A stretch of DNA of 64,000 nucleotides from Acetobacteraceae bacterium H6797 (lineage in GTDB: Bacteria > Pseudomonadota > Alphaproteobacteria > Acetobacterales > Acetobacteraceae): the NCBI GenBank assembly GCA_015223225.1, contig JADFCQ010000006.1:124001-188000 (forward strand), written 5' to 3'. Positions 4,208 through 39,843 of the stretch are shown here, piece by piece. The notes beneath the pieces are model-generated. The model was given only the letters and a program-made list of their open reading frames with translations. It was not told the DNA's origin and made no database searches. Numbering within the stretch: position 1 is the stretch's first letter; each line of letters begins with the position of its first letter. The translations under genes were made by a program, and so were the position numbers.

Positions 4208-7072
4208 ATGTCAGTGACTTCCTCGCCGGTCCCATCGGGGGAGGAGCTTTGGAAATTCCTGGGCGATGGCGGTGCGATGGGTGCGCTGGTCCGGGGCCAT
4301 GACTGGGCCTCGACGCCGCTCGGCGCGCCCGACGGCTGGCCGCCCTGCCTGAGGCATTCGCTGCCGGTCTGCCTCAATGCCGGGACGCTCTCGGCCCTGT
4401 TCTGGGGCCCGGACCATCTTCTCCTGCCCAATGACCGCTGCCGCCCCGTGCTGCGGGAGCCCGAGGCGGCGCTGGCCAAGCCTGCGCGCGACGCCTTCGG
4501 CACCGCCTGGGACATGCTCGGGCCGGAACTCGAGCGCGTGCTGGAAAGCGGCCGCGGTCTCGAAAAGCAGGGCCTGCGGCTCGATGGCGCCGAGACGGGC
4601 GGCTGGTGGAATATCGGCATCGCCCCGATCCTGGATCATGACGGCACCGTCGCCGGCCTCTGGCTGCACGGCGTGGAAAGCACGAGCCACAGCCATGCCC
4701 TGGAGCGCTCCCGCGCTGCCGAGGAGCGCTATTCCCTCGCCCTCGCCGCCGGGGGCGGCCTCGGCGCCTGGGACTGGGACGTGGAGCGCGATACGGTCGT
4801 CTCCGATGCCCGCTTCGCCCGGATGTATGGCGTCGATCCCGCCAAGGCCGCCGAGGGCGTGCCCATGTCGGAATTCTTCCGTTGCATCCACCCGCAGGAC
4901 CTGCCCCGCATCAAATCTGCCATCCGCCACAGTATCGAGACGGGGGAGGGCTTCGCCGAGGATTACCGCCTGGTGCTCGGCGAACGCGAGATCTGGATCG
5001 CGGCACGCGGTCAGCCGCATTACGACGAGGCGGGCAAGCCCATCCGCTTCCCCGGCGTGAGCTTCGACATCACCGCGGGGCGACAGACGGAGCAGGCGCT
5101 GAAGGATAGCGAAATCCGCTACCGCGCCCTCTTCGACGCCATCGACGAAGGCTTCTGCATCATCGAATTCCTCGACGGGCCCCATGGCCCGCTGAGCGAC
5201 TACATTCATATCGAGGCCAACCCGGCCTATGCCGTGCATGCCGGCATTCCCAATGTCGTCGGCCAGAAGCTGCGCGACATGGTGCCCGACGAGGCCGAGG
5301 GCTGGCTCGAGCTCTATGGCGGCGTGCTGCGCACCGGCAACCCGATCCGCTTCGAGCGCGAATTGGTGGCGACGGGGCGCTACCTGGAACTCGCGGCCTT
5401 CCGCATCGAGCCCGCCAGCCGCCGGCAGGTCGCCGTCTTGTTCCAGGACATCACGGCCCGCAAACGCGCGGAGGCCGAACTGCGGCGCCTGAACGACACG
5501 CTGGAAGCCCGCGTCGCCACCGCCCTCGCCGAGCGCAAGATCCTGGCCGATGCCGTGGAAGGCATGGCCGCCTCGGTGCATGTCGTCGATAGCGACCTCC
5601 GCTGGCTCGCCATCAATGGCGCTGCGACGCGGGAATGGGAGCGACTTTTCGGCCTTCGCCCTCAGGTGGGCGACAGACTGCCGGACCTGCTGGCCGCCCA
5701 GCCGGAACAGCGCGAGGCCCTGCTTGAGCTATGGCACCGCGCCCTGGCGGGCGAGGAATATGTTCAGGTCCTGCAACTCGGGGACCGCCGCAGCCGCCAC
5801 TACGAAATGCGCTTCAGCGCCTTGCGGGATGCGACGGGGCAGCAGATCGGCGCCATCCAATTCGCCTATGACGTGACCGAGCGCCTGGCCGAGCAGGAGC
5901 GGCTCCGCAGCGCCGAGGCCGCCCTGCGCCAGAGCCAGAAGATGGAGGCCGTAGGCCAGCTCACAGGCGGCATCGCCCATGATTTCAACAATTTGCTGAC
6001 CGGCATTTCCGGCAGCCTCGAACTTCTGGGCAATCGTATCTCCCAGGGGCGCTACAAGGATGTGGGCCTCTTCGTCGAGGCCGCGCAGGGCGCCGCACGC
6101 CGCGCGGCCTCCCTGACGCACCGCCTCCTGGCCTTCTCCCGCCGTCAGACGCTCGACCCGAAGCCCACCGACGCCAATCGCCTCGTCGCGGGCATGGAGG
6201 AGCTGATCCGCCGCACCGTGGGGCCGGAAATCACGCTGGAAGTGGTCAAGGCGGGCGGGCTCTGGCCCACGCTGGTCGATCCGCCGCAGCTGGAGAACGC
6301 GCTGCTCAACCTCTGCATCAATGCGCGAGACGCCATGCCCGAGGGCGGCCGGCTGACCATCGAGACGGCCAATCGCTGGCTCGATGCCCGGACCGCCCGC
6401 GAGCGAGAGCTTGAGCCGGGGCAGTATATCTCCCTCTGCGTCTCAGATACGGGCACCGGCATGACGCCGGACGTCATCGCCAAGGCCTTCGACCCCTTCT
6501 TCACCACCAAGCCGATCGGGCAGGGCACGGGCCTCGGCCTCTCGATGATCTACGGCTTCGCCCGGCAGTCCAACGGCCAGGTGCGCATCTATTCGGAAGT
6601 GGGGCAGGGCACCTTGGTCTGCCTCTACCTCCCCCGCTATGTCGGCGAGCTGGATTCTGGCGATGCCATGCCCGAGGCCGGCCAGGCGCCTCGCGCCGAG
6701 GCGGGCGAGACCGTCCTCATCGTCGATGACGAGCCGACGGTGCGCATGTTGGTGACCGAGGTGCTGGAAGAGCTGGGCTATTCCGCCATCGAGGCCGCGG
6801 ATGGCGCGGCGGGGCTAAAGGTGCTGCAATCAGACGCGCGGGTGGATCTTCTGATCACCGATGTCGGCCTGCCGGGCGGGCTCAATGGCCGTCAGGTGGC
6901 CGATGCGGCGCGGGTCGTCAGGCCGGGGCTGAAAGTGCTCTTCATCACCGGCTATGCCGAGAATGCCGTGGTCGGCAACGGGCATCTGGAGGCCGGGATG
7001 CATGTCCTGACCAAGCCCTTCACCATGGAAACCCTGGCCGCGCGCATCCGCGAACTCATCAGCGGCGGCTGA
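4208..7072 (+). CDS. PAS-containing hybrid sensor histidine kinase
   Basis: A 954-residue cytoplasmic kinase with no clear membrane segment. Order of domains: an N-terminal PAS-like module (about 10-155, with [15 protein letters not shown]), PAS with PAC tail (about 175-292), PAS (about 300-420), a short coiled coil (about 415-445), PAS (about 445-560), HisKA dimerization box with the phosphoacceptor His591 in [11 protein letters not shown], HATPase (about 690-810; DTGTGM and GTGLGLSM), and a C-terminal receiver (about 835-950; [10 protein letters not shown]). The alternative ATG at 4151 would add 19 residues; neither start has a good ribosome site. It is probably paired with the receiver at 3757 and sits among lactate and carboxylate genes, so it may sense such acids (inference). 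Confidence 0.9.
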
Positions 7073-27567: not shown

Positions 27568-28491
27568 TCAGGCCGTGATGCCGGCCGTGACCTCCTTGGG
27601 GATGATCGCGCCGCGATGTTGCACGACCAGCGAAGCGAGGCGATGCGCCGCCTCCGCCGAGGCCGGGGGCGCCTTGCCCACGAGCCGCGCGGCGAGATAG
27701 CCGGCGGCGAAACTGTCCCCCGCGGCCGTGGTATCGACTACCTTCGGCACTTTTCGCGCCGGCACCAGCGTCTCCTCACCCTCGACGCGCAGCCGGGCGG
27801 CCGGCGGTTCGAGCTTCAGCACGATTTCCGGCACTTTCCGCGCGGCAAGCTGGTCCATCACCGCCTGCTCCTCGCCCCAGCCGAAGATCTCGTCCAACTC
27901 GGTCGAACCGGCGAGGAGAATGTCGGTGCGGGAGAACATGGCCTCATAGGCCTCGGCGGCGGCTTCCTTGCCGGCCCAGAGGCGCGGGCGCCAATTGGTG
28001 TCGAAGGCTACCAGCCCGCCGCGCGCGCGGAGCCGATCGAGCAGCGGCAGGAGTTTCGCCCGACCCTCGGCGCCCCAGATGGCGAGGCTGATGCCGGAGA
28101 GATAGAGCAGGTCATAGCCCTCGAGCGCCGCCATCAGCGCATCGGCGCCAGGCAGCAGGAACAGCTCCCGCGCGGGCGCTTGGTCGCGCCAATAGAGGAA
28201 GCGCCGTTCTCCATTGGCATCCGTGAGGATCATGTAGAGCCCCGGCACCCGGCCCGGCAGGCGGGCGACATGCGTGGTGCCGACGCCCTCCCTGTTCCAG
28301 GCGGCGACCATGGCATCGCTTTCCGGGTCATCGCCGAGCGCGGTGACATAGTCGGTCGCGATACCCAGGCGCGCGAGATAGACGGCCGTGTTCAGCGTAT
28401 CGCCGCCGAAGCCGACGGTCGTGTTCCCATCGGCGCGGCGGGAAAGCTCGATCATGCATTCGCCGAGGCAGGCGACGCGCGGGGCGCTCAT
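27568..28491 (-). CDS. kdgK: 2-dehydro-3-deoxygluconokinase (PfkB family)
   Basis: A 307-residue ribokinase-family sugar kinase. VACLGECMIEL opens the fold, FGGDTLNTAVYLARLG is the substrate-binding first PfkB signature, and DTTAAGDSFAAGYLA is the second, with the catalytic base Asp in AAGD. It phosphorylates KDG to KDPG. The assignment to KDG rests on sequence style and on eda immediately upstream, overlapped by four bases (28488-28491). It is the last gene of the sugar-acid operon. Confidence 0.9.
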   Translation of the reverse strand: MSAPRVACLGECMIELSRRADGNTTVGFGGDTLNTAVYLARLGIATDYVTALGDDPESDAMVAAWNREGVGTTHVARLPGRVPGLYMILTDANGERRFLYWRDQAPARELFLLPGADALMAALEGYDLLYLSGISLAIWGAEGRAKLLPLLDRLRARGGLVAFDTNWRPRLWAGKEAAAEAYEAMFSRTDILLAGSTELDEIFGWGEEQAVMDQLAARKVPEIVLKLEPPAARLRVEGEETLVPARKVPKVVDTTAAGDSFAAGYLAARLVGKAPPASAEAAHRLASLVVQHRGAIIPKEVTAGITA

Positions 28492-29138
28492 CGCGGCAGC
28501 TTCGCCAGCGAGCGCCGGGCGATCTCGGTGATTTCCGACCACTGGCCGTCCCGCATGAGCTTGGTCGGCGCGAGCCAGGAGCCGCCGACGGCGACCACCT
28601 GCGGCAAGGCGAGCCATTCCGCCGCCTGATCCTCGCCGATGCCGCCCGTCGGGCAAAAGCGCATCTCGGGGAAGGGGCCCGCGAAGGCCTTGAGCGCGGC
28701 AATGCCGCCCGCCGGCACGGCCGGGAAGAACTTGACCACCTCGAAACCGCGCTCGACAGCCGCCATCAGCTCGGAGGGCGTGGCGATGCCGGGCACGAAG
28801 GGCAGGCCCAGGGCGGCCGCCGCATCCAGCAGTGCGGGCGTGGCGCCGGGACTCAGCGCAAAACGTGCGCCGAGCGAGCGGGCCAGTTCCAGATCCTTCG
28901 CCGTGGTCACGGTGCCGAGGCCGACCAGGGCTTCGGGTACTTCCGCGATGATGGCCCGCGCGGCATCCGCCGCGGCCGGGGTGCGCAGCGTGATTTCCAA
29001 CATGGTGATGCCGCCGGCCACGAGCGCACGCGCCAGCGGCACGGCATCCGCCACTTTCTCGATGGTCAAAACGGGCACGAGGCGGCTCTCGGCCAGCAGG
29101 GCCAGCGCCGGGGCCTGAGAGGAGGAAAGTGCAGTCAT
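28488..29138 (-). CDS. eda: KDPG/KHG aldolase
   Basis: A 216-residue class I aldolase splitting KDPG into pyruvate and glyceraldehyde 3-phosphate. Blocks visible: LVPVLTIEKVADAVPLARAL, GGITMLEITLRTPAA (catalytic Glu region), VGLGTVTTAKDLELA, and the Schiff-base lysine in VVKFFPAVPAGG, followed by FCPTGGI for phosphate binding. It overlaps kdgK by four bases and lies 32 bases after uxaA. Confidence 0.94.
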   Translation of the reverse strand: MTALSSSQAPALALLAESRLVPVLTIEKVADAVPLARALVAGGITMLEITLRTPAAADAARAIIAEVPEALVGLGTVTTAKDLELARSLGARFALSPGATPALLDAAAALGLPFVPGIATPSELMAAVERGFEVVKFFPAVPAGGIAALKAFAGPFPEMRFCPTGGIGEDQAAEWLALPQVVAVGGSWLAPTKLMRDGQWSEITEIARRSLAKLPR

Positions 29139-29170: not shown

Positions 29171-30694
29171 CTACATCGTCGCGCCGATTTGCCAGGGCAC
29201 GAACTCATGCCGACCATAGCCGAGCTGTTCGGATTTGGAACGCTCGCCGGAAGCGATATCGAGGATCTTCTGGAAGATCTCCTCGCCCTTCTGCTCGATC
29301 GTCACGCCGTCGAGAATGTCGCCGCAATCGATATCCATATCCTCCTCCATGCGGCGGTAGAGGTCGGAATTCGTGGCGAGCTTGATCGAGGGTGTGGGCT
29401 TGCAGCCATAGGCGGAGCCGCGCCCGGTCGTGAAGCAGAGCACATTGGCCCCGCCGGCCACCTGGCCCGTTGCGGCGACCGGGTCATAGCCTGGCGTATC
29501 CATGAAGACGAAGCCGCGGCGGTCAATCTGCTCGGCATAGCGATAGACGCCGCGCAGCGTCGCCGTGCCGCCCTTCGCGGCAGCGCCGAGGGACTTCTCG
29601 AGAATGGTCGTGAGGCCGCCCGCCTTGTTGCCGGGTGAGGGGTTGTTGTTCAACTCGCCACCGGCGCGCGCGGCGTAATCCTTCCACCAGTCGATAAGAT
29701 CGACGATCTTCCGGCCGACCTCGGGGCTTTCGGCGCGGCGGGTGAGCAGATGCTCGGCGCCGAAAATCTCCGGCGTCTCGGAAAGAATGGCCGTGCCGCC
29801 ATGGCGCACGAGCTTGTCGGCCGCCGCACCGAGAGCGGGATTGGCCGTCATGCCGGAATAGCCGTCGGAGCCGCCGCATTGCAGCGCGAGCGTCAGTTCG
29901 GAGGCCGGCACCGCCTCGCGCTGGGCGCGCGCGGCGAAGGGCAGCATTTCGCGAACCTTCGCGACGCCGGCGGCGATGGCCTTGCGCGTGCCGCCGCTCT
30001 CCTGGATCGTCAGGCTCTGGAAATGCTCGCCTTCAATGATGCCGTAAGCCTCCTTAAGCCGCGGAATCTGGAAGACCTCGCAGCCCAGGCCGACGACGAC
30101 CACGGCGGCGAAATTCGGATGGCTCGCATAGCCCCATTGTGTGCGCGCGAGCAGGTCGAATTCCTCGCCCTTGCTGCCCATGCCGCAGCCCGTGCCATGC
30201 GTGAAAGGCACGACGCCGTCGATACTGGGATAATCGGCCAGGATGCCGGATTTGTTGATCTCATCGGCGATGTAATCGATCACCGTGGCCGAGCAATTTA
30301 CCGAGCTGAGGATGCCGATATAGTTGCGCGTGCCCACGCGCCCATTCGGCCTGCGGAAACCCATGAAATGCGCGGGGAGCTCGCCGGGGCGCAGCATCTG
30401 ATCGGCGCGGACCTCGGTGGCGAAAGCATAGTCGCGCTCGAAATCATGGATGGCGACGTTATGCTCGTGCACCCAGGAGCCGGGGGTGATGTCTTTCCCC
30501 GCGAAGCCGATGATCTGGCCGAATTTCCGCACCGGCTCGCCCCGCGCGATGCCCGTGGTGGAGAGCTTGTGCCCCTTGGGCACGCGCTCCGTCACCGTGA
30601 GGCCGAAGGGAAGGATCGTGCCGGGTGGAACGGAATCCACCGCGACGACGACGTTATCGGCTTCGTGCAGGCGCAGGGTGCGGGGCATCGCCAT
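29171..30694 (-). CDS. uxaA: Altronate dehydratase-like (UxaA/GarD superfamily)
   Basis: A 507-residue full-length protein with an N-terminal SAF domain (about 1-90) and the dehydratase core (about 110-500). Motifs include RPNGRVGTRNYIGILSSVNC, HGTGCGMGSKGEE, LQCGGSDGYSGMTANPALG and TTGRGSAYGCKPTPSIKLATN, which carry the conserved cysteines and histidines of the iron site. It removes water from D-altronate to give KDG. Galactarate dehydratase GarD is a relative, but the nearby tagaturonate-reductase-like and KDG genes favour altronate. It starts six bases after the lgoD-like stop. Confidence 0.85.
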   Translation of the reverse strand: MAMPRTLRLHEADNVVVAVDSVPPGTILPFGLTVTERVPKGHKLSTTGIARGEPVRKFGQIIGFAGKDITPGSWVHEHNVAIHDFERDYAFATEVRADQMLRPGELPAHFMGFRRPNGRVGTRNYIGILSSVNCSATVIDYIADEINKSGILADYPSIDGVVPFTHGTGCGMGSKGEEFDLLARTQWGYASHPNFAAVVVVGLGCEVFQIPRLKEAYGIIEGEHFQSLTIQESGGTRKAIAAGVAKVREMLPFAARAQREAVPASELTLALQCGGSDGYSGMTANPALGAAADKLVRHGGTAILSETPEIFGAEHLLTRRAESPEVGRKIVDLIDWWKDYAARAGGELNNNPSPGNKAGGLTTILEKSLGAAAKGGTATLRGVYRYAEQIDRRGFVFMDTPGYDPVAATGQVAGGANVLCFTTGRGSAYGCKPTPSIKLATNSDLYRRMEEDMDIDCGDILDGVTIEQKGEEIFQKILDIASGERSKSEQLGYGRHEFVPWQIGATM

Positions 30695-30700
30695 GGGATG

Positions 30701-31711
30701 TCAGACTTCCAGAATGGCCTTGATGACGCCGGCCTCGGGGCGGATCCAGTCGCGGAACAGCTCGGGCCCCGCGGTGAGGGAACCGCGATGCGTGTTGAGC
30801 GCCTTGGTCGGCACCTTGCCGGCCGCCATCTGCTTGACCACCTCGGCGAAATCGTCCGGCTGCGCATTGCGGCTGGCAAAAAGCGTGGTCTCGCGCTTAT
30901 GGAATTCCGGGTCGTTGAAGGTGATGTTCTCGCGCACGACGGAAACCAGCACATAGCGCCCAGCATGGCCGACGAAGCCGAAGCCGCGCTGCATCGCGGC
31001 CGTATTGCCGGTGCAGTCAATGACGACGTCGAAGAAATCCCCACTGGTCGCAGCCGCCGCCTTGGCCTCAGCATCGGCATTGGCGAGCAGCAGCGCATCG
31101 GCGCCGAGTTGGTCTTGCGTGAAGGCGAGACGGTCCTCGCGCATATCCATCACCGTGACATGCGCGCCGCGCGCTTTGGCGAAGATGATGGCGGACATAC
31201 CGATCGGGCCCGAGCCGACGACGAGAACGCGGTCTGCGGCCGTAATGCCGCCACGCTTCACGCCATGCGCACCGATGGCGAGGAACTCGATCATTGCCGC
31301 GTCTTCGAGCGGCGTATCGCCGACGGCGACGACATTGCTGGCGGGAACACAGAGAAGTTCCGCCATGCCGCCGTCGCTATGCACACCGAGGACGCTGATA
31401 TTCTGGCAGGCATTGGTGACGCCCTTGCGGCAGGCCACGCAATGGCCGCAAGACAAATAGGGCACGATGTAGCAATTCTGGCCGGGTGAAAGATCGCTGC
31501 CGGCGGGCGCACTCACCACGGTGCCTGAAAGCTCATGACCCATGACGCGCGGATATTCCAGGAACGGGTGCTTACCCTGGAAGATATGGAAATCCGTGCC
31601 GCAGATGCCGACGCGCTTGATGCGCACCAGGACCTCGCCATCCTTCGGCTTCGGCTCCGGGCGTTCGATCACCGACAGCTTGCCGGGTTCGTCGCAGATC
31701 AACACCTTCAT
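30701..31711 (-). CDS. Zinc-dependent alcohol dehydrogenase, L-galactonate/L-gulonate 5-dehydrogenase-like
   Basis: A 336-residue medium-chain dehydrogenase. Catalytic zinc ligands: VGICGTDFH (Cys), GHELSG (His-Glu) and later glutamate; structural zinc cysteines occur in CGHCVACRKGVTNAC. The NAD site is VVGSGPIGMSA. It most resembles the LgoD (YjjN) and L-idonate/L-gulonate dehydrogenase group, which oxidises C5 of aldonates. With UxaB-like and UxaA-like partners, oxidation of L-galactonate to D-tagaturonate is the best-fitting reaction. That substrate is inferred from context. Confidence 0.82.
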   Translation of the reverse strand: MKVLICDEPGKLSVIERPEPKPKDGEVLVRIKRVGICGTDFHIFQGKHPFLEYPRVMGHELSGTVVSAPAGSDLSPGQNCYIVPYLSCGHCVACRKGVTNACQNISVLGVHSDGGMAELLCVPASNVVAVGDTPLEDAAMIEFLAIGAHGVKRGGITAADRVLVVGSGPIGMSAIIFAKARGAHVTVMDMREDRLAFTQDQLGADALLLANADAEAKAAAATSGDFFDVVIDCTGNTAAMQRGFGFVGHAGRYVLVSVVRENITFNDPEFHKRETTLFASRNAQPDDFAEVVKQMAAGKVPTKALNTHRGSLTAGPELFRDWIRPEAGVIKAILEV

Positions 31712-31740: not shown

Positions 31741-31769
31741 AAAATCCCCGGCGACACGGGCCACCGGGG
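31741..31769 (-). terminator. Intra-operon hairpin with T tail after the binding-protein gene
   Basis: On the minus strand CCCCGGTG (31769-31762) pairs with CGCCGGGG (31753-31746) across an eight-base loop, with one wobble pair, and is followed by ATTTT. It lies 11 bases after the binding-protein stop and 35 bases before lgoD. Partial termination here would set more transporter than enzyme message. Confidence 0.6.
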
Positions 31770-31780
31770 TAATCACGGTA

Positions 31781-32572
31781 TCAGACGGCAGGCATCTCGG
31801 CCGGCAGGTCGACACCGTTGTATTTCTTATAGATCGCACGAAGCTTGCCGTTCTCGAGATTCTTCGCGATCCAGCTGTTCAGCTCGCCGGCTAGCGCCGT
31901 GTCGCCCTTGCGGACGCCGATGGCATAGGGGTTGGTCTTGATGACGATCTTGACCTCGAAAGCATCATTGCCCGCGCGGCCATTGGCGGCGGCCATGATC
32001 TGCGGCGAGGTCGCCATGATATCCACCTGGCCGGAAACCAGCGCCGTCACCAGGGTCGCGTCGTCGTCATAGCGGACGATCTGCGCATTGGTGTTGAGCG
32101 CGGTGAATTCCTTGTCGTTGGAGCTGCCGCGCGTGGTGCCGACGCGCTTGCCGGCGAGATCGGCATAGGTCTTGATGGCGACGCCCTTCTTGGCGGCCAC
32201 GACGATCTGGATGACGCCATAGGCGTTCGAGAAGTCGATGACGCGCTTGCGCTCCTCGGTCACGCTGAAGCTCGCCATGACCATATCGGCCTTGCCCGTC
32301 AGCAGGAAGGGCACGCGGTTCGGGCTGGTGACCTGCACGATCTCGAGCGGCATGCCCCAGTCGGCGGCGAGAAGCTTGGCGGATTCGACGTCGGAGCCGA
32401 TCGGCTGCATGCTCGCATCGGTCATGCCGAAAGGCGGCGAGCCGAGATCGACCGCGACGAGCAGCTTCTTGCGGCTGCGGATGGTGTCGAGCGTGTCGGC
32501 GAGAGTCGGCATGGCAAGGCCGGCGCCGACGAGGCCGATGCCGGCACCGAGCAGGTTACGACGATTCATCAT
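31781..32572 (-). CDS. PAAT-type ABC transporter periplasmic binding protein, probably for a sugar acid
   Basis: A 263-residue secreted binding protein with an RR-containing signal (MMNRRNLLGAGIGLVGAGLA). The mature domain is the amino-acid (family 3) fold: LLVAVDLGSPPFGM, and SVTEERKRVIDFS with Arg108, which matches the carboxylate-binding arginine of LAO/HisJ. At the place of the conserved aspartate that binds the amino group (GRLDAALQD in LAO-type proteins) this protein has GQVDIMATS, with Ser189. Loss of that acid argues against an amino-acid ligand. It is in the middle of a sugar-acid operon. Start ATG 32572 has GGAGG upstream. Confidence 0.85.
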   Translation of the reverse strand: MMNRRNLLGAGIGLVGAGLAMPTLADTLDTIRSRKKLLVAVDLGSPPFGMTDASMQPIGSDVESAKLLAADWGMPLEIVQVTSPNRVPFLLTGKADMVMASFSVTEERKRVIDFSNAYGVIQIVVAAKKGVAIKTYADLAGKRVGTTRGSSNDKEFTALNTNAQIVRYDDDATLVTALVSGQVDIMATSPQIMAAANGRAGNDAFEVKIVIKTNPYAIGVRKGDTALAGELNSWIAKNLENGKLRAIYKKYNGVDLPAEMPAV

Positions 32573-32596
32573 TCTTGGTTCCTCCAAAAGACTAGA

Positions 32597-33325
32597 TCAG
32601 AGCCCGCTGCCGACGAAGTCGCGCAGTTCGGGCGTATTCGCGTTGTCGAGCTGATGGCCCGGGAGCACCTCCCATACCTTGCCCTGACGCATGTAGATGA
32701 CGTTGCTCGCGACCTTCTTCGCGAAACCCATTTCGTGCGTAACGAGGATCATGGTCATGCCGCCACGGGCGAGATCCTCCATGACCTTCAGAACTTCGCC
32801 AGTGAGCTGAGGATCGAGGGCTGAGGTCACCTCGTCGAAGAGCATCACTTTGGGCTGCATCGCCAGGCTGCGCGCAATGGCCACGCGCTGCTGCTGGCCA
32901 CCGGAAAGCTGCTCCGGGTAATGCCCCGCCTTATCGGCCAGGCCCACACGCGTGAGGCACTCCATGGCAAGGTCACGAGCCGCCTTCTTGCTGAGCCCCT
33001 TCACGCAGGTCGGGGCAAGCATGATGTTCTGCTCGGCCGTCAGATGCGGGAAGAGATTGTAGCTCTGGAAAACGATGCCGACATCGAGCCTAAGCGCGCG
33101 TTTGTCGAGCTTGTCGCTATGGATCTCGTGCCCGCAGACTTCGATGCTGCCCTGCTCGATGGTTTCGAGCGCGTTGATGCAGCGCAGCGCGGTCGACTTG
33201 CCGGAGCCGGACTGCCCGATCACCGCCACCACTTCGCCGCGGCCAACCTCGAAGGACACGCCGTCGAGAACCTTGAGCGTACCGAAGCTCTTGTGAACGT
33301 TCGAAAGCTTAACGACGACCGACAT
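32597..33325 (-). CDS. PAAT-type ABC transporter ATP-binding protein
   Basis: A 242-residue ATPase of the GlnQ/HisP type. Walker A is GQSGSGKST, the signature is [16 protein letters not shown], Walker B is [13 protein letters not shown], and the switch histidine is in [12 protein letters not shown]. It energises the two permeases encoded just upstream (overlap of 17 bases at 33309-33325) and the binding protein 24 bases downstream. Confidence 0.93.
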
Positions 33326-33962
33326 TGAGCCTCCTTTCCAGCCCGCGGCTCCAGGCCGAGAGCGGGTAGCAGATCAGGAAATAGAAGACCGCAACCGTGA
33401 GGAAGACGGTGAAGGGCTGGAAGGTGGAATTGTTGATGAGCTTGCCAGCCTGCGAGAGCTCGACGAAGCCGACCACCGAGGCCAGTGAGGTATTCTTGAC
33501 GATCTGAACGAGGAAGCCGACCGTGGGCGCCGTCGCGATACGCATCGCCTGAGGCAGGATCACGCGCGTCATCCGCTGCCAACGTGTCATCGCGAGGCAT
33601 TCTGCGGCTTCCCACTGCGTCTTGGCCACCGATTGGATGCAGCCGCGCCAGATTTCGCCGAGGAAGCCAGATGCATATATCGTCAGGCCTGCACCCGCTG
33701 CGATCACCGCCGGTAGCTGGTCGAAACCCGCGATGGCCAAACCAAAGTAGATCAGGAACAGCAAGATCAGCAGCGGTGTGCCTTGCACGATCTGCACATA
33801 GGCCGAGGCGAGCCCGCTTACCAGCTTGCTGGGAGAAACGCGAGCCAGCGCCACGAGAAAGCCGAGGAAGCCGCCGCCGATGAAGGCAATGGCGGAGAGC
33901 ACAAGAGTCAACCCCGCCGCGATGACGAGGAACCAGAGATGGCCGAGGCCGAAGCTGGGCAT
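33309..33962 (-). CDS. PAAT-type ABC transporter permease, second subunit
   Basis: A 217-residue permease with five membrane segments of the HisQM type. [21 protein letters not shown] is the usual first signature and [20 protein letters not shown] is the ATPase-contact EAA loop. It forms a heterodimer with the product of 33972-34655, which starts 10 bases upstream in the transcript. Confidence 0.92.
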
Positions 33963-33971
33963 GCTCTCCTC

Positions 33972-34655
33972 CTACAGCGCGGTGCCGAGCTTGCGCCGGC
34001 GGGTAAAGACGAGCATGCCGAATCCCCAGAAAGCCCAGCGCACCACGAAGGAAAGCGCGAGGTAGAGGAGGCCGACGACGATATAGGTCTCGAAGCTGCG
34101 GAAGGTATCGGACTGGATGCGGTTCGCCACCGCCGTCAATTCCTCAGCCGAAATCTGCGACGTGATCGAGGAGGCGAGCATCAGCAGCACATATTGGCTG
34201 ACGAGCGCCGGATAGACGCGCTCGATCGCAGGCCGCAGGATCACGTGCCAATAGGTCTGGCGCTTGTTCAGCCCCAGGCAATCGGCTGCTTCGATTTGCG
34301 CCTTATGCACACTTTCGATGCCGGCGCGCATGATCTCGCAAGTATAGGCGATGACATTGACGACAAGCGCCGTCACGGCGGCCAGGTTCGCATCGACACG
34401 AATGCCGAGAACCGCGATGCCGAAATAGACGAGGAAGACCTGCACCAGCAGCGGCGTGTTGCGGATCACCTCGACATAGGCACCGACCACTGTCTTGAGC
34501 CAGGGCGGCCCATCCGCTCGCGCGATGGCGCATAGCGCGCCACCCACGAAACCGAGTACGGTGGAAATGGCGGAGAGCTGCAGGGTCAGCCAGACGCCCG
34601 TCAGGAACTCACGCCAGTATGGCAGCAGGGAAGCGAAATCGAACTGATAGGTCAT
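33972..34655 (-). CDS. PAAT-type ABC transporter permease, first subunit
   Basis: A 227-residue permease with five membrane segments. YVEVIRNTPLLVQVFLVYFGI and the EAA loop ESVHKAQIEAADCLGLNKRQ are clear HisQM-type motifs. The start overlaps the end of the uxaB-like gene by four bases, which ties the transporter to the sugar-acid enzymes in one transcript. Confidence 0.92.
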   Translation of the reverse strand: MTYQFDFASLLPYWREFLTGVWLTLQLSAISTVLGFVGGALCAIARADGPPWLKTVVGAYVEVIRNTPLLVQVFLVYFGIAVLGIRVDANLAAVTALVVNVIAYTCEIMRAGIESVHKAQIEAADCLGLNKRQTYWHVILRPAIERVYPALVSQYVLLMLASSITSQISAEELTAVANRIQSDTFRSFETYIVVGLLYLALSFVVRWAFWGFGMLVFTRRRKLGTAL

Positions 34656-35788
34656 GCCGCCTTCCCATGGATGTTTCGCGCTACAAGAGCGGCCAGTTCG
34701 GGAGTCGCGGGGCGTGCTTGTGCGCCATCGATCCAGGACAGGAAGGCCGCTATACGGCGTTCGACTTTGGCCTGGTGGTTCTGTGCGATATCGGCCACAC
34801 GATGCGCGAGGAAGGGGTTCAGGAAGCGATCCATCGTGGTGGTGACGTAGGTTTTGGCTTCCTGGCCCATGCCGCGGGCGGCGAAGCCGGGTAGCACCTC
34901 GTGCGTATAGATCGCCTCCAGCCGCGCGCGGACGGCACCATCCGCGAGGATCTCGCGCACCGTTTCGCCTGCCGGCCTTGCTTCGGCTTGCCAGATATCG
35001 GCCAAAACCGTATGGCCGAGATTGAGAATATGCAGCTTAAGTCTCTCGAAAGGCTCGAGATCATCGGCCAGAACGATGCTGGGATGGCTGCAGGGCAGCA
35101 CGAGGCCGGGGCGGTGCTCGATCACCCAGATGGCATAGGGTTCGGCCACGGCACCGATGGGTTCCAATGGCTCGGAAACGATGCGGTCGACGAGTGTGTC
35201 GGCCCAGATCACTCCCTCTCTCAGCCAGGTCAGAAAGGCCTCCGGCGCTTGGGCAGCCCCGGCGAGTTCTGTCACTTTTCCTTGGAGAATCCTGGCATTA
35301 TGATTGATCAACTCGCAGGGCAGAATGGTCATCGGCTTGCCGCCGGCCTGCCAGCGGCGATGCAGCAGGGCCGTCAGCTTGCCAGGGAAGGAAGCCGGCA
35401 CACGACCGTCGAGCAGCGTCGGGTTCCGTTCCTCTTCAGCGACATCATAGCCGGCGTCCCCCATATTGGAGACCACGTAATGAGCTTCGTCGACGAAGAG
35501 GGAGGTCAGAGCCTGCCAATCCGCAGCGGCGGAAAGGCCACGATCGACGCTGGTGACGGTGATCTTTCGTTCGACGGGCGCGCCATCTTCCATCCCGCGG
35601 ATGATGACCGGATAGCCGCCGGCAGCGCCGAAAGCCGCCACGCGACCCGCACGCGCCGCCGAGCCCGAAGCCTGCACGACGGCGATGGGGCCCACGGCCT
35701 GCCCCGCGAGACGCGCTTCATGCACGAACAGATCGACATGCGCCTGCAGAAAGCGGCTGGTGCCGAACTGGATAATCCGGCCGCTCAT
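34652..35788 (-). CDS. Mannitol-dehydrogenase-family oxidoreductase, tagaturonate reductase (UxaB)-like
   Basis: A 378-residue NAD-dependent long-chain dehydrogenase. The Rossmann start is RIIQFGTSRFLQAHVDLFVHEA; TILPCELINHNA and LKLHILNLGHTVLADI are the catalytic-lysine and asparagine/histidine blocks of the polyol/hexonate family. It would reduce D-tagaturonate to D-altronate, feeding UxaA. It is about 100 residues shorter than E. coli UxaB, so fructuronate or another ketoaldonate cannot be excluded. Start ATG 35788; the open frame to 35908 has no conserved content. First gene of the operon, divergent from the GntR regulator. Confidence 0.78.
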   Translation of the reverse strand: MSGRIIQFGTSRFLQAHVDLFVHEARLAGQAVGPIAVVQASGSAARAGRVAAFGAAGGYPVIIRGMEDGAPVERKITVTSVDRGLSAAADWQALTSLFVDEAHYVVSNMGDAGYDVAEEERNPTLLDGRVPASFPGKLTALLHRRWQAGGKPMTILPCELINHNARILQGKVTELAGAAQAPEAFLTWLREGVIWADTLVDRIVSEPLEPIGAVAEPYAIWVIEHRPGLVLPCSHPSIVLADDLEPFERLKLHILNLGHTVLADIWQAEARPAGETVREILADGAVRARLEAIYTHEVLPGFAARGMGQEAKTYVTTTMDRFLNPFLAHRVADIAQNHQAKVERRIAAFLSWIDGAQARPATPELAALVARNIHGKAA

Positions 35789-35865
35789 GCCTTTCCCGCC
35801 AGGAAAAAGGCGCGCGGATATAGAGGGGGAATCTTGGACACATCTCCTCCGAGCAATTCGTTGCT

Positions 35866-35935
35866 CTTGTATGTTAAGCATAAAGGACCGTTGCCAAAGG
35901 GCTGTCAAGACGGTTCTTAATGTTCAAGATACAAG
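35866..35935. promoter_or_regulatory. Inverted CTTGTAT / ATACAAG half-sites between uxaB-like and gntR genes
   Basis: CTTGTAT (35866-35872) and its complement ATACAAG (35929-35935) lie 56 bases apart in the 210-base divergent region. The second is part of a CAAG-ATA-CAAG direct repeat. TTGTAT-type half-sites are usual for FCD-class GntR regulators, so these are candidate operators for the adjacent regulator, controlling both directions. Confidence 0.4.
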
Positions 35936-35998
35936 CACGAACCGCTCCCGATAGCGGCCGAACCACATGAAATCAGAGCCTTGGGAAAGATTGCCTGC

Positions 35999-36922
35999 AT
36001 GAAGGCAAATACCGTTTACAAGCGGGCTTATAATCACTGCCTGGATCTGCTTACCGCTCGGCCCTTAGGCGACTGGCCCTGTTCCGAGATGGAATTGGCC
36101 GAGGCGCTGGAGGTGAGCCGGACGACGGTGCGCGCCGTCTTGGCGAGCCTGACACAGAACGGCATCGTCGATACCAGCGGCAATCGGCGCGTCATCCTGC
36201 GGCATCCGGCCGGTGCGGATTACTTTCCCGGCGTGCAGACCGAGAGCGTCGCCCAGGTCGTCGAACGCAAGTTCATGCAATGGGTTCTGCAGGGCGATTG
36301 CCGGCCCGGCCAGATGGTCAATGGAGCGGAACTCGCACGGCTTTTCGGCACCTCGACCACAGCGGTTCGCGAGTATCTCACGCGCTTCAGCCATTTCGGT
36401 CTGCTGGAGCGGCGAGAGAATAGCGGCTGGATCTTCAAGGGCATCACGGCGGATTTCGCTGCCGAGATCTACGAAATCCGCGAGATGTTCGAGCTGCGCT
36501 CGGCCCGGCGCTTCGTGGAATTAGCCCCTGATTCACCCGCCTGGGCGGAGCTCGATGAGATCGAGCGCGAACATCTCCTGCTGCGCGATGACATCGACGC
36601 CCGCTTCAGCGACTTCTCGGCCCTGGACGAGCGGTTGCACCGGCTCATCCACGATGCTTCGCGTAATCGCTTCATGCGCGACTTCTATGATGTCATCGCC
36701 ATTATCTTCCACTACCACTACCAGTGGAACAAGCGGGACGAGAAGGAGCGTAACCTCGTCGCCATCAACGAGCATCTCGATTACATCGCGGCGCTTCGCA
36801 CGCATGACCTGCGGCTCATCGACATGAAGTGCCGCGCCCATCTGCGCACAGCCCGCGCCACGATGCTTCGTTCCATCGAGGTCGGCCCACTCAGCGGCGC
36901 AGCCAGATCTGATGAGGATTGA
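35999..36922 (+). CDS. GntR-family regulator with two winged-helix domains and an FCD domain
   Basis: A 307-residue regulator. The C-terminal helical FCD ligand domain (about 150-290) has the metal-ligand pattern YEIREMFELRSARRF...ALDERLHRLI...HLDYIAALRTHD. A canonical GntR winged helix precedes it (about 80-145: GQMVNGAELARLFGTSTTAV). Unusually, a second helix-turn-helix is at the N-terminus (about 5-70: SEMELAEALEVSRTTVRAVL, then a wing GNRRVILRHP). Start ATG 35999; a TTG at 35981 is also in frame. It is divergent from the sugar-acid operon and likely its ligand-controlled repressor. Confidence 0.88.
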   Translation: MKANTVYKRAYNHCLDLLTARPLGDWPCSEMELAEALEVSRTTVRAVLASLTQNGIVDTSGNRRVILRHPAGADYFPGVQTESVAQVVERKFMQWVLQGDCRPGQMVNGAELARLFGTSTTAVREYLTRFSHFGLLERRENSGWIFKGITADFAAEIYEIREMFELRSARRFVELAPDSPAWAELDEIEREHLLLRDDIDARFSDFSALDERLHRLIHDASRNRFMRDFYDVIAIIFHYHYQWNKRDEKERNLVAINEHLDYIAALRTHDLRLIDMKCRAHLRTARATMLRSIEVGPLSGAARSDED

Positions 36923-36934
36923 TGGCCTGGACCA

Positions 36935-38596
36935 TCAATTGACCCTGCCCAGCAGCCCCCGAGCGATGACCTGCGCCTGAATCTCGGCCGCACCTTCGAA
37001 AATCGAAAGAATGCGCGCGTCGCACAGCACGCGGCTGATCGGATATTCCAGCGCATAGCCATTGCCGCCATGGATCTGCAGCGCGCAATCCGCGTTGCTG
37101 AAGGCGATCCGCGCGGCAAGGAGCTTCGCCATCCCCGCCTCGATGTCGCAGCGTCGGCCTGCATCCTTCTGGCATGCGGCAAAATAGGAGAGCTGCCGCG
37201 CCATCATGGTCTCGGTCGCCATGAAGGCGAGTTTCCCGCTCACGCGCGGAAAGTTCACGATGGGCTTGCCGAATTGCGCGCGATCCTTGGCATAGTTCAG
37301 GCCCAGTTCCAGCGCATTCTGCGCGACACCAAGCGCCCGCGCCGCCGTCTGAATACGGGCGCTCTCGAAGGTTTCCATGAGCTGCTTGAAGCCCTGGCCC
37401 TCGACACCGCCAAGGAGCGACGTGACGGGAACCTCGAATCCGTCGAAAGAAATCTCGTATTCCTTCATCCCACGATAGCCGAGCACGGGAATCTCCGTCC
37501 CGCTCATGCCCTTGGCGGGGAAGGGGTTTCCCTCGCTGCCGCGCGGTTTCTCCGCCAGCAGCATCGAGAGGCCCTTATAACCCTCCTCGGCCGTTCCCGT
37601 TCGCACCAGCAGTGTCATGAGGTCGGAGCGGGAACCATGGGTGATCCAGGTCTTGGCCCCGTAAACCTTGTAGACGTCACCTTCACGAACCGCGCGTGTG
37701 CGGAGGCTGCCGAGGTCGGAGCCGGTATTGGGCTCGGTGAACACCGCCGTCGGCAACACCGCACCGCTGGCGATGGCGCCGAGCCAACGCGCCTTCTGCT
37801 CTTCCGTTCCGCCGAGCCGGATCAACTCCGCGGCGATCTCCGACCGCGTGCCCAGCGAGCCCACGCCGAGATAGGCACCGCTCAGGGCTTCCGAGACCAG
37901 GCACATCGCCACCTTGCCCAGCCCCAGCCCGCCGAACTCCTCCGGCACGGTGAGGCCGAAGACGCCCATTTCGGCAAGTTTCTCCATCAGCTCTATAGGA
38001 ATCAGCTGGTCCTTGGCATGCCATTCTGGCGCGAAAGGCGTGATCTCTGCCGCCCCGAAGCGCAGGAACTGCTCGCGCGTCGCCTCCAGCATCTCGTCAT
38101 CGAGCCCGAGCGCGCCGAATTGACCCTCCGACAGCGCTTCCACCAACACGACTCGCGCCGCCTCCAACCCTTGGCGATCAGAAAGTATCGCCAGGGCCGG
38201 CTCGGCCGCGTATTGCGCCAAGGCCGCAGCGGGCAGATCCATATCCTCCGGCCGGATCATCTCCGACTGGCTCATCGGAATGCCGCCCTGCAACTGCCGC
38301 CCATATTCGGAGAAGCCTAGCCGCAGCATGGCCTGTTCAGCCGCGCCGAAACGGCCCGCTTCTTCCAAACGCCGGGCCCAATGCAGCGTCTGCCGCAGCG
38401 CCTCCACATAGGTCGCCTGCCAAGCGAGCCCATGCGCCGCGTGCTGGTGCTTCTCGAGCAGGGAGGCGCTCGGCTTGCCGCCGGGCGAGACCAGCCCCTC
38501 GAGCGCCCGCCGCGTCGCGTCATGTAGCCGCTCGGCCGCGCTCAGCAGGGCGGCGCAGGGGGCGAGAAGGCCGGGAATGGTGTTGATGGCGGGCAT
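36935..38596 (-). CDS. mcd: Acyl-CoA dehydrogenase, methylsuccinyl-CoA dehydrogenase (Mcd)-like
   Basis: A 553-residue flavoprotein, much longer than ordinary acyl-CoA dehydrogenases (about 380) because of a helical N-terminal extension of about 150 residues (HGLAWQATYVEALRQTLHWA). That extension and length are typical of (2S)-methylsuccinyl-CoA dehydrogenase of the ethylmalonyl-CoA pathway. The core has TAVFTEPNTGSDLGSLRTRA, KTWITHGSRSD, and ALQIHGGNGYALEYPISRVL near the catalytic region. It would form mesaconyl-C1-CoA. It follows the mct-like gene by 11 bases. Other pathway genes (ccr, ecm) are not in the window. Confidence 0.82.
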   Translation of the reverse strand: MPAINTIPGLLAPCAALLSAAERLHDATRRALEGLVSPGGKPSASLLEKHQHAAHGLAWQATYVEALRQTLHWARRLEEAGRFGAAEQAMLRLGFSEYGRQLQGGIPMSQSEMIRPEDMDLPAAALAQYAAEPALAILSDRQGLEAARVVLVEALSEGQFGALGLDDEMLEATREQFLRFGAAEITPFAPEWHAKDQLIPIELMEKLAEMGVFGLTVPEEFGGLGLGKVAMCLVSEALSGAYLGVGSLGTRSEIAAELIRLGGTEEQKARWLGAIASGAVLPTAVFTEPNTGSDLGSLRTRAVREGDVYKVYGAKTWITHGSRSDLMTLLVRTGTAEEGYKGLSMLLAEKPRGSEGNPFPAKGMSGTEIPVLGYRGMKEYEISFDGFEVPVTSLLGGVEGQGFKQLMETFESARIQTAARALGVAQNALELGLNYAKDRAQFGKPIVNFPRVSGKLAFMATETMMARQLSYFAACQKDAGRRCDIEAGMAKLLAARIAFSNADCALQIHGGNGYALEYPISRVLCDARILSIFEGAAEIQAQVIARGLLGRVN

Positions 38597-38607
38597 GGTC
38601 CTCTCCC

Positions 38608-39843
38608 TCAGCCGATGGCCATCTGCGCGGCCTTGGCAGGCCCGGCGATGGTGCCTGCGTCATGCAGCTTGCCGATCTGCGTGCTCGACAGGCCCAGCAC
38701 CTCGCTCAACACCTGATCGGTGTCCTGGCCCATGACGGGCGCCGGCGCCGGCGGCAACCGCTCCAGACCCCCGATCGCCAAGGGCGAGCCCGCGGCGAGC
38801 ACAGACCCCACACCCGGCTGGTCGATATGGCCGAACATCGGGTTCTCCGTCGAACAGCGCCGGTCTTCCTTCACCAGCTGGCCGAAATCCTGATACGGCC
38901 CCCAGAGCACGCCGGAGCCGTCGAGCAGCCGCGTGATTTCGGCGAGGCTCCGCTTCGAGGTCCATGCTTCCAGCACCGCGAAAATCGCTGCGCGCGCCTC
39001 GAAACGCCCGCCCTCGGTATCGAGATCGACGCCCATCATCGGCCCGATCATCGCGAGCTTTTCCGACAGCCCCGTGGCCTTGCCGATGGCGCGCCACTGG
39101 CGGTTGGAAACGGCGACGATCATCACCCGCCGCCCATCCGCCGTGGCGAAATCGCGGCCCAAGGCGCCGTAGAGATCATTGCCCAATGGCTCGCGCACCG
39201 CGCCATTCACCTGGACATCGGCGATGTAACCAAGATTGCCCACGCTCGCGAGCATTACATCCGACAGGGCAAGGGTGATCTCACGCCCCTGGCCGTCCCG
39301 CCGGCGCTGCCGCTCGGCCGCGAGCAGGCCGGTCGAGAGATAGAGCCCCGCCGCGATATCCCAGGCGGGCAGCACATGGTTCACCGGCTTGCCGCCCCGG
39401 CCTGTGGCCATGGGGAAGCCCGAGGCGCAGTTCACGGTATAGTCCACTGCCCCGCTGCCATCGTGATTGCCGGTCAGCCGCGCCATGATCAGGTCCGCGC
39501 GATGCGCCGACAGGGCCTCGTGGCTCATCCATCCGCTGGCGGGCAGGTTGGTCAGCAGAATGCCGCTTTCCTCGCCCGGCTGGGTGATCAGCGCGCGGGC
39601 GATTTCCTGCCCCTCCGGTGTGTTCAGCGCCAGGGAGACGGAGCGTTTGCCCTTGTTCAGGCTCGCCCAGTAAAGGCTGGCGCCCGAGGGCGACAAGGGC
39701 CAGCGGCGATAGTCGATATTCCCGCCGATAGGGTCGATGCGGATCACCTCCGCCCCGAGCTGCGCCAGGGTCATGCCGCCCAGGGGTGCCGCGATGAAGG
39801 CGGAAACCTCGACGATGCGCATACCTCGGAGAATGGTGCTCAT
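38608..39843 (-). CDS. mct: Family III CoA transferase, mesaconyl-CoA C1-C4 CoA transferase (Mct)-like
   Basis: A 411-residue CaiB/BaiF-type enzyme. The N-terminus GMRIVEVSAFIAAPLGGMTL with GAEVIRIDPIGGNIDYRRWP is strongly reminiscent of Chloroflexus-type Mct, the intramolecular CoA transferase of the 3-hydroxypropionate bi-cycle. VDYTVNCASGFPMATG includes the catalytic aspartate expected in this family, and NHVLPAWDIAAGLYLSTGLLAAER and YGALGRDF are further shared blocks. It would move CoA from C1 to C4 of mesaconate. The Mcd-like partner downstream produces the C1 isomer. Assignment is by recalled similarity, not alignment. Confidence 0.78.
   Translation of the reverse strand: MSTILRGMRIVEVSAFIAAPLGGMTLAQLGAEVIRIDPIGGNIDYRRWPLSPSGASLYWASLNKGKRSVSLALNTPEGQEIARALITQPGEESGILLTNLPASGWMSHEALSAHRADLIMARLTGNHDGSGAVDYTVNCASGFPMATGRGGKPVNHVLPAWDIAAGLYLSTGLLAAERQRRRDGQGREITLALSDVMLASVGNLGYIADVQVNGAVREPLGNDLYGALGRDFATADGRRVMIVAVSNRQWRAIGKATGLSEKLAMIGPMMGVDLDTEGGRFEARAAIFAVLEAWTSKRSLAEITRLLDGSGVLWGPYQDFGQLVKEDRRCSTENPMFGHIDQPGVGSVLAAGSPLAIGGLERLPPAPAPVMGQDTDQVLSEVLGLSSTQIGKLHDAGTIAGPAKAAQMAIG

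Follow-up and report, generated by a model that had tools for sequence, protein, structure and literature searches.

The locus described here raises the question of which substrate is carried by an importer of amino-acid type when its genes lie in an operon for sugar acids. The importer is an ATP-binding cassette (ABC) system of the polar amino acid (PAAT) family, encoded within a 64,000-nucleotide stretch of Acetobacteraceae bacterium H6797 (contig JADFCQ010000006.1, positions 124,001 to 188,000 of the forward strand; hereafter the window). An earlier note had placed its four genes between uxaB-like and lgoD/uxaA-like genes, an arrangement borne out by the open reading frames (ORFs), Pfam, and NCBIfam, and had proposed an aldonate as the ligand of the periplasmic substrate-binding protein (SBP) since the aspartate that holds the amino group of amino acids is missing. 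The genomic evidence agreed with an aldonate, whereas the reason given for it carries little weight, as the majority of PF00497 proteins in the class lack that aspartate. From the observed gene content, homology, linkage, and pocket columns we infer that the ligand is most likely L-galactonate or a close aldonate; the system is thus probably an ABC importer of PAAT architecture with an SBP whose specificity has shifted from amino acids to a polyhydroxylated monocarboxylate, L-galactonate being the foremost candidate.

Nine minus-strand genes span positions 35788 to 27568 of the window in the order uxaB-like, two HisMQ-type permeases, ATPase, SBP, lgoD-like, altronate/galactarate dehydratase (GD/AH), eda, and kdgK. 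The operon is predicted to encode a complete Escherichia coli-type L-galactonate route (LgoD, LgoR, reductase, dehydratase, Eda, and KdgK), the same enzyme chain by which E. coli degrades L-galactonate (LgoD-UxaB-UxaA-KdgK-Eda, together with LgoT and LgoR). The E. coli genes are scattered and uptake is assigned by annotation to LgoT, a symporter of the major facilitator superfamily (MFS), while here the genes form one cluster with a PAAT ABC importer inside the operon, and no MFS gene was present in the ORF and Pfam survey of the operon. In the proposed mechanism, the SBP would close on L-galactonate, with R108 (perhaps R86 or R148) on the carboxylate and Ser, Asn, and Asp residues on the hydroxyls, and the two permeases and the ATPase would import the bound molecule. 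The LgoD-like enzyme would then oxidize L-galactonate at C5 to D-tagaturonate, the UxaB-like enzyme would reduce this to D-altronate, and the GD/AH enzyme, predicted to be a D-altronate dehydratase, would yield 2-keto-3-deoxygluconate (KDG). Phosphorylation by KdgK and cleavage by Eda would give pyruvate and glyceraldehyde-3-phosphate, all presumably under the control of the LgoR-like GntR regulator.

The LgoD-like protein was closer to LgoD (42% identity) than to RspB (33%), the regulator had no match to ExuR in the comparison with E. coli proteins, and Eda scored over its curated cut-offs. Several observations weigh against an L-galactonate route. The UxaB-like, GD/AH, and KdgK-like proteins scored under the NCBIfam cut-offs, the first with 204 bits for tagaturonate reductase (cut-off 359), 58 bits for fructuronate reductase, and 29% identity with E. 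coli UxaB; the dehydratase was closer to GarD (39%) than to UxaA (34%); and the host genome encodes, outside the operon, an LgoT-like MFS protein of 29% identity. In its favor, an LgoT-like permease was not found in 5/11 carrier genomes (E ≤ 1e-20), and of the 22 SBPs of the host genome only that of the operon lies less than 50 kb from one of its three GD/AH genes; the second nearest is 59 kb away. The two other host GD/AH dehydratases (G000:C4:384267-384992 and G000:C3:217694-218419) have no PF00497 gene near them and resemble GarD about as much as the operon copy does.

The uronate isomerase UxaC (PF02614) was absent in 15/15 carrier genomes, while the same search was positive in 7/14 controls, and galacturonate is therefore an unlikely feed for the UxaB-like step. 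Across the class, UxaC was present in only 6/58 genomes, which tempers this point, and its absence was rejected as statistical proof for that reason; it bears on the possible pathway only. These genes could also serve another hexonate or lactone entering the same chain, such as L-gluconate, L-galactono-lactone, or D-altronate, or a hexuronate or aldarate. L-gluconate could enter either in the manner of Paracoccus 43P, with C5 epimerization to D-idonate, or in that of Luteolibacter LG18, with a C4 epimerase. The LG18 enzyme LguD oxidizes L-gluconate as well as L-galactonate, and LguC shows weaker activity on 5-keto-L-gluconate (PMC12632266). The GarD-like dehydratase, the alignment of SBP residue R86 with the additional Arg of GltI, a dicarboxylate binder, the two SMP-30 lactonase-like genes of a related Comamonadaceae locus, and the L-rhamnose-mutarotase-like and ribose-type ABC genes seen by sequence inspection in an alphaproteobacterial one all point in this direction. 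Against it, LgoD and LgoR are the closest among the E. coli relatives compared, the absence of UxaC speaks against hexuronates that enter by way of this isomerase, an aldarate route has no need for LgoD or UxaB, and D-altronate has no need for LgoD. Such an alternative feed was judged rather unlikely, and the conclusion of an aldonate importer, which rests mainly on LgoD and LgoR, the absence of UxaC, the recurrent gene set, and the carriers without an LgoT-like protein, is well supported.

The binding pocket was assigned by alignment of the SBP with E. coli GltI, HisJ, ArgT, and GlnH, together with the GltI and LAO contact residues; numbering starts at the ATG at 32572. The two residues on which the earlier note had relied were both recovered: R108 aligned with the invariant Arg of the four E. 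coli proteins (MAFFT), and the column of Ser189 is Asp in all four. Their weight was another matter. Among 65 aligned PF00497 proteins from 41 alphaproteobacterial genomes, column 108 was Arg in 64, whereas column 189 was Asp or Glu in just 28 and Ser in 10. Of the other PF00497 proteins encoded by the host, the seven with the best scores likewise have no acid at 189, and sampled relatives of the SBP carry Ser, Thr, Ala, or a similar residue there and an acid in no case. By sequence, an acid at 189 does not define the PAAT family, and loss of the Asp is weakly diagnostic because most PF00497 proteins of the class lack it; retained Arg with missing Asp is the commonest state and says little about the ligand by itself. 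The missing Asp was consequently rejected as decisive ligand evidence. As a separate observation, the HisJ/LAO-type amino-group Asp is gone in more than half of the family in the class; ligands of another kind may be bound by many proteins now called amino-acid binders.

A reading of the pocket from two residues is also insufficient because two acids, at columns 42 and 171, and the arginines R86 and R148 are conserved. The earlier note had overlooked these four residues. Column 42 is Asp in the SBP, HisJ, ArgT, and GlnH and Arg in GltI; Asp171 lies in an RYDDDAT motif, is His in GltI, and has an acidic counterpart in 5/65 of the sampled proteins. R86, in the motif NRVPFL, occupies the column of GltI Arg75, which is Arg in 11/65, and the GltI residue contacts the side-chain carboxylate of glutamate in the DEBP structure. 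Arg148 adjoins Gly-Ser/Thr at 149-150, and columns 45 and 83, mostly Tyr, Phe, or Trp in the family sample, are both Ser in the SBP. Arg86 and Arg148 as well as Asp42 and Asp171 would be hydroxyl or carboxylate contacts, and this small, polar, Arg- and Asp-rich residue set suits a polyhydroxylated acid. GltI, the SBP of the E. coli GltIJKL importer (GltI/DEBP, 2VHA), is also a PF00497 protein and shares Ser, Arg, and Ser at 83, 86, and 101 and Arg at 108; overall identity is 23%, and columns 189, 42, and 171 are Asp, Arg, and His in GltI compared to Ser, Asp, and Asp here. The AlphaFold2 model of the SBP (mean predicted local distance difference test score 86) displayed a two-lobed periplasmic-binding-protein fold in the open form. 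The closest solved structures to the model are amino-acid binders. Two points speak against a sugar acid: no sugar-acid-binding PF00497 structure was among the Protein Data Bank (PDB) matches, and D42 or D171 could still hold an amino group.

The latter point bears on the possibility that the importer still serves an amino acid or an amino-sugar-acid (e.g., an aminoaldonate), its linkage reflecting co-regulation or a carbon skeleton that enters the pathway after deamination. The published description of SBP_bac_3 gives amino acids as the sole predicted ligands (PMC9602780), D42 and D171 could stand in for the Asp at 189, and many PF00497 proteins of unassigned ligand also lack it. However, Pfam and NCBIfam profile searches of the operon revealed no enzyme of amino-acid metabolism such as a transaminase or deaminase, all 14 SBPs from comparable loci have Ser at positions 45 and 83, which are mostly aromatic in the family sample, and the linkage to sugar-acid enzymes recurs in two clades of the SBP tree; a ligand with an amino group was judged improbable.

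This recurrence comprised 14 loci of the sampled tree in which the importer accompanies lgoD/uxaB/uxaA homologues in differing gene orders, from Alphaproteobacteria (the window, L009-L013, and L042) and from Comamonadaceae and relatives (L021-L025, L027, and L150). They fell into two separate, well-supported clades (alpha and Comamonadaceae) in the maximum-likelihood SBP tree. Although the two clades share only about 50-55% identity, S45, Q80, S83, P84, N85, S101, S103, S150, S189, and P190 were invariant in the 14 SBPs, as were D42, R108, R148, and D171, with R86 in 13/14. In relatives linked to RpiB and ribokinase, column 45 is I/V, column 83 G, column 85 T/S, and column 150 T, and this pattern is as expected if the 14 SBPs share one ligand and the other branch has a different one. 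Ser189 also occurs outside the 14 and is not exclusive to the L-galactonate context. Ten further relatives adjoin a GD/AH dehydratase with other partners, among them a Rhizobium locus with a two-part dehydratase, a short-chain dehydrogenase/reductase, and an RraA-like protein beside the importer, the lactonase-bearing Comamonadaceae bin mentioned above (L020; by sequence also with an HpcH-type aldolase), and a Variovorax bin that encodes an aldehyde dehydrogenase, best matched by the model for alpha-ketoglutaric semialdehyde dehydrogenase. Distribution of the system is sparse and patchy: relatives were identified in 5/385 alphaproteobacterial genomes including the host (E ≤ 1e-60) and in 20/399 genomes of the order Burkholderiales (E ≤ 1e-45), and the viral contigs searched contained none.

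More distant PAAT importers, with SBPs 41-46% identical, adjoin RpiB (L043 7905-12341, L045 8036-12419, L159 6340-10663, and L044 8049-12199); three of the four also have a ribokinase-like gene, and L044 has two tandem SBPs. This context suggests that the RpiB-linked importers may carry a pentose or pentose derivative. It also lends something to the notion that the operon importer takes up a neutral sugar or polyol with R108 merely structural, this Arg being near invariant across the family, yet LgoD-type enzymes start from an aldonate and the Pfam and NCBIfam searches found neither a sugar dehydrogenase nor a lactonase in the operon; a neutral substrate was judged very improbable. With L-galactonate as the favored candidate for the operon system, a wider proposal is possible, if somewhat doubtful: the whole PAAT branch (SBPs about 37-100% identical, in Alphaproteobacteria and Burkholderiales) may have left amino acids for carbohydrates, namely sugar acids where GD/AH dehydratases are adjacent and perhaps pentoses where RpiB and ribokinase are. 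Its marks would be the arginines R86, R108, and R148, an RYDDDAT motif, and the lack of an acid at 189.

Two neighborhoods among the relatives were of separate interest. In L042, the L-galactonate cluster comes after an L-rhamnose-mutarotase-like gene (5658-6002) and a sugar ABC system of ribose type, and these upstream genes, judged by sequence inspection, hint at L-galactose or another L-sugar as source. In L028 (4100-8158) and L026 (560-4591), a conserved protein of ~360 amino acids, 76% identical between the pair, is encoded directly upstream of the PAAT permeases; by eye it resembles the cyclase/kynurenine-formamidase type, with no Pfam match at 1e-10.

The features of the window are collected in Table 1. 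The earlier note had also claimed a shared transcript from a four-base overlap at 34652-34655, and the overlap was confirmed (ATGA, formed by the end of the uxaB-like ORF at 34652 and the start of permease 1 at 34655). The eda and kdgK genes overlap in the same manner at 28488-28491, permease 2 and the ATPase gene overlap by 17 bases, and because of these overlaps the genes from uxaB-like to kdgK are likely one transcript. The remaining intergenic gaps are 6-32 bases, the exception being 69 bases between the SBP and lgoD-like genes, the site of a 10-pair hairpin. The hairpin was rejected as an established terminator, since both scan (six terminator-like sites compared to 5.8 expected) and fold (z -0.74) were at chance level; it is a possible partial terminator or 3' stabilizer. 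An alternative TTG start would extend the SBP ORF to 32587. In the divergent control region, the promoter scan gave no sigma-70 match, and a block ACATTAA..ACC..TTGAC was kept in the five aligned divergent promoter regions and may include a GntR operator. Beyond the regulator, convergent to it and outside the conserved sugar-acid set, acyl-CoA-dehydrogenase-like and CaiB-type CoA-transferase-like genes were recognized by eye at 36935-39843.

Table 1. Coordinates and assignments of the operon and adjoining features in the window
Feature	Position	Strand	Basis
LgoR-like GntR/FCD regulator, divergent upstream of uxaB-like gene	35981..36922	+	36% to E. coli LgoR, 268 aa, E=3e-57
Divergent control region	35789..35980	.	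ACATTAA..ACC..TTGAC block
uxaB-like gene (tagaturonate reductase/mannitol dehydrogenase family), first gene of the operon	34652..35788	-	Pfam Mannitol_dh + C
PAAT permease 1	33972..34655	-	HEQRo_perm_3TM TIGR01726, 96.4 bits (cut-off 42.2)
PAAT permease 2	33309..33962	-	HEQRo_perm_3TM TIGR01726, 82.8 bits (cut-off 42.2)
ABC ATPase, GlnQ/HisP type	32597..33325	-	ABC_tran; best match GlnQ model, 310 bits (cut-off 379)
Periplasmic binding protein (SBP), SBP_bac_3/PF00497	31781..32572	-	Pfam, 108 bits; ATG start, MMNRR...
10-pair hairpin followed by ATTTT, between SBP and lgoD-like genes	31746..31769	-	Terminator-like scan and fold
LgoD-like Zn-dependent dehydrogenase, predicted to act on L-galactonate	30701..31711	-	42% to E. 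coli LgoD over 335 aa (full length)
GD/AH dehydratase (altronate/galactarate dehydratase family)	29171..30694	-	GD_AH_C, 350 bits
2-keto-3-deoxy-6-phosphogluconate (KDPG) aldolase (Eda)	28488..29138	-	NF004325, 255.5 bits (cut-off 241); TIGR01182, 245.6 bits (cut-off 156)
KDG kinase, KdgK-like, PfkB	27568..28491	-	Best model NCBIfam KdgK, 328.6 bits (cut-off 400)

Comparison with known systems placed the enzymes on familiar ground and the importer apart. Luteolibacter LG18, from a different phylum than the host, has a dual L-glucose/L-galactose pathway (lguABCDEF) with like enzymes, namely an L-gluconate/L-galactonate dehydrogenase, tagaturonate reductase, altronate dehydratase, KDG kinase, and KDPG aldolase (PMC12632266), and the paper makes no mention of a transporter. 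SBP-dependent uptake of the same predicted ligand class is known from DctP-family binding proteins of tripartite ATP-independent periplasmic (TRAP) transporters, which bind D- and L-galactonate (PMC12076931), but these belong to an unrelated ion-driven class and the operon has no DctP. Within PF00497, the Agrobacterium SBPs for deoxyfructosyl amino acids (5L9O/5LOM) and nopaline (5OT8) have unusual, partly sugar- or acid-derived ligands, which nevertheless still include an amino-acid moiety, and their sequence similarity is distant (5L9O E=1.2e-12). No report of a PAAT-type aldonate or sugar-acid importer was found in the open-access literature, subscription papers and fitness-browser data lying outside the search. 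The novelty is accordingly provisional and concerns the importer, which is PAAT by architecture and not by predicted ligand; the enzyme chain was already known.

The alignment results caution against ligand inference from a missing Asp alone. If the assignment is true, the operon would add an ABC-type importer to the reviewed L-galactonate transporters, which are TRAP SBPs (PMC12076931), and to LgoT, the symporter of E. coli. It would also represent a natural specificity change in the best-studied binding-protein fold. Few bacterial SBPs are as numerous as those of PF00497, and their routine annotation is as amino-acid-specific (PMC9602780); an aldonate-carrying clade, if true, would correct the amino-acid-only rule for this family.

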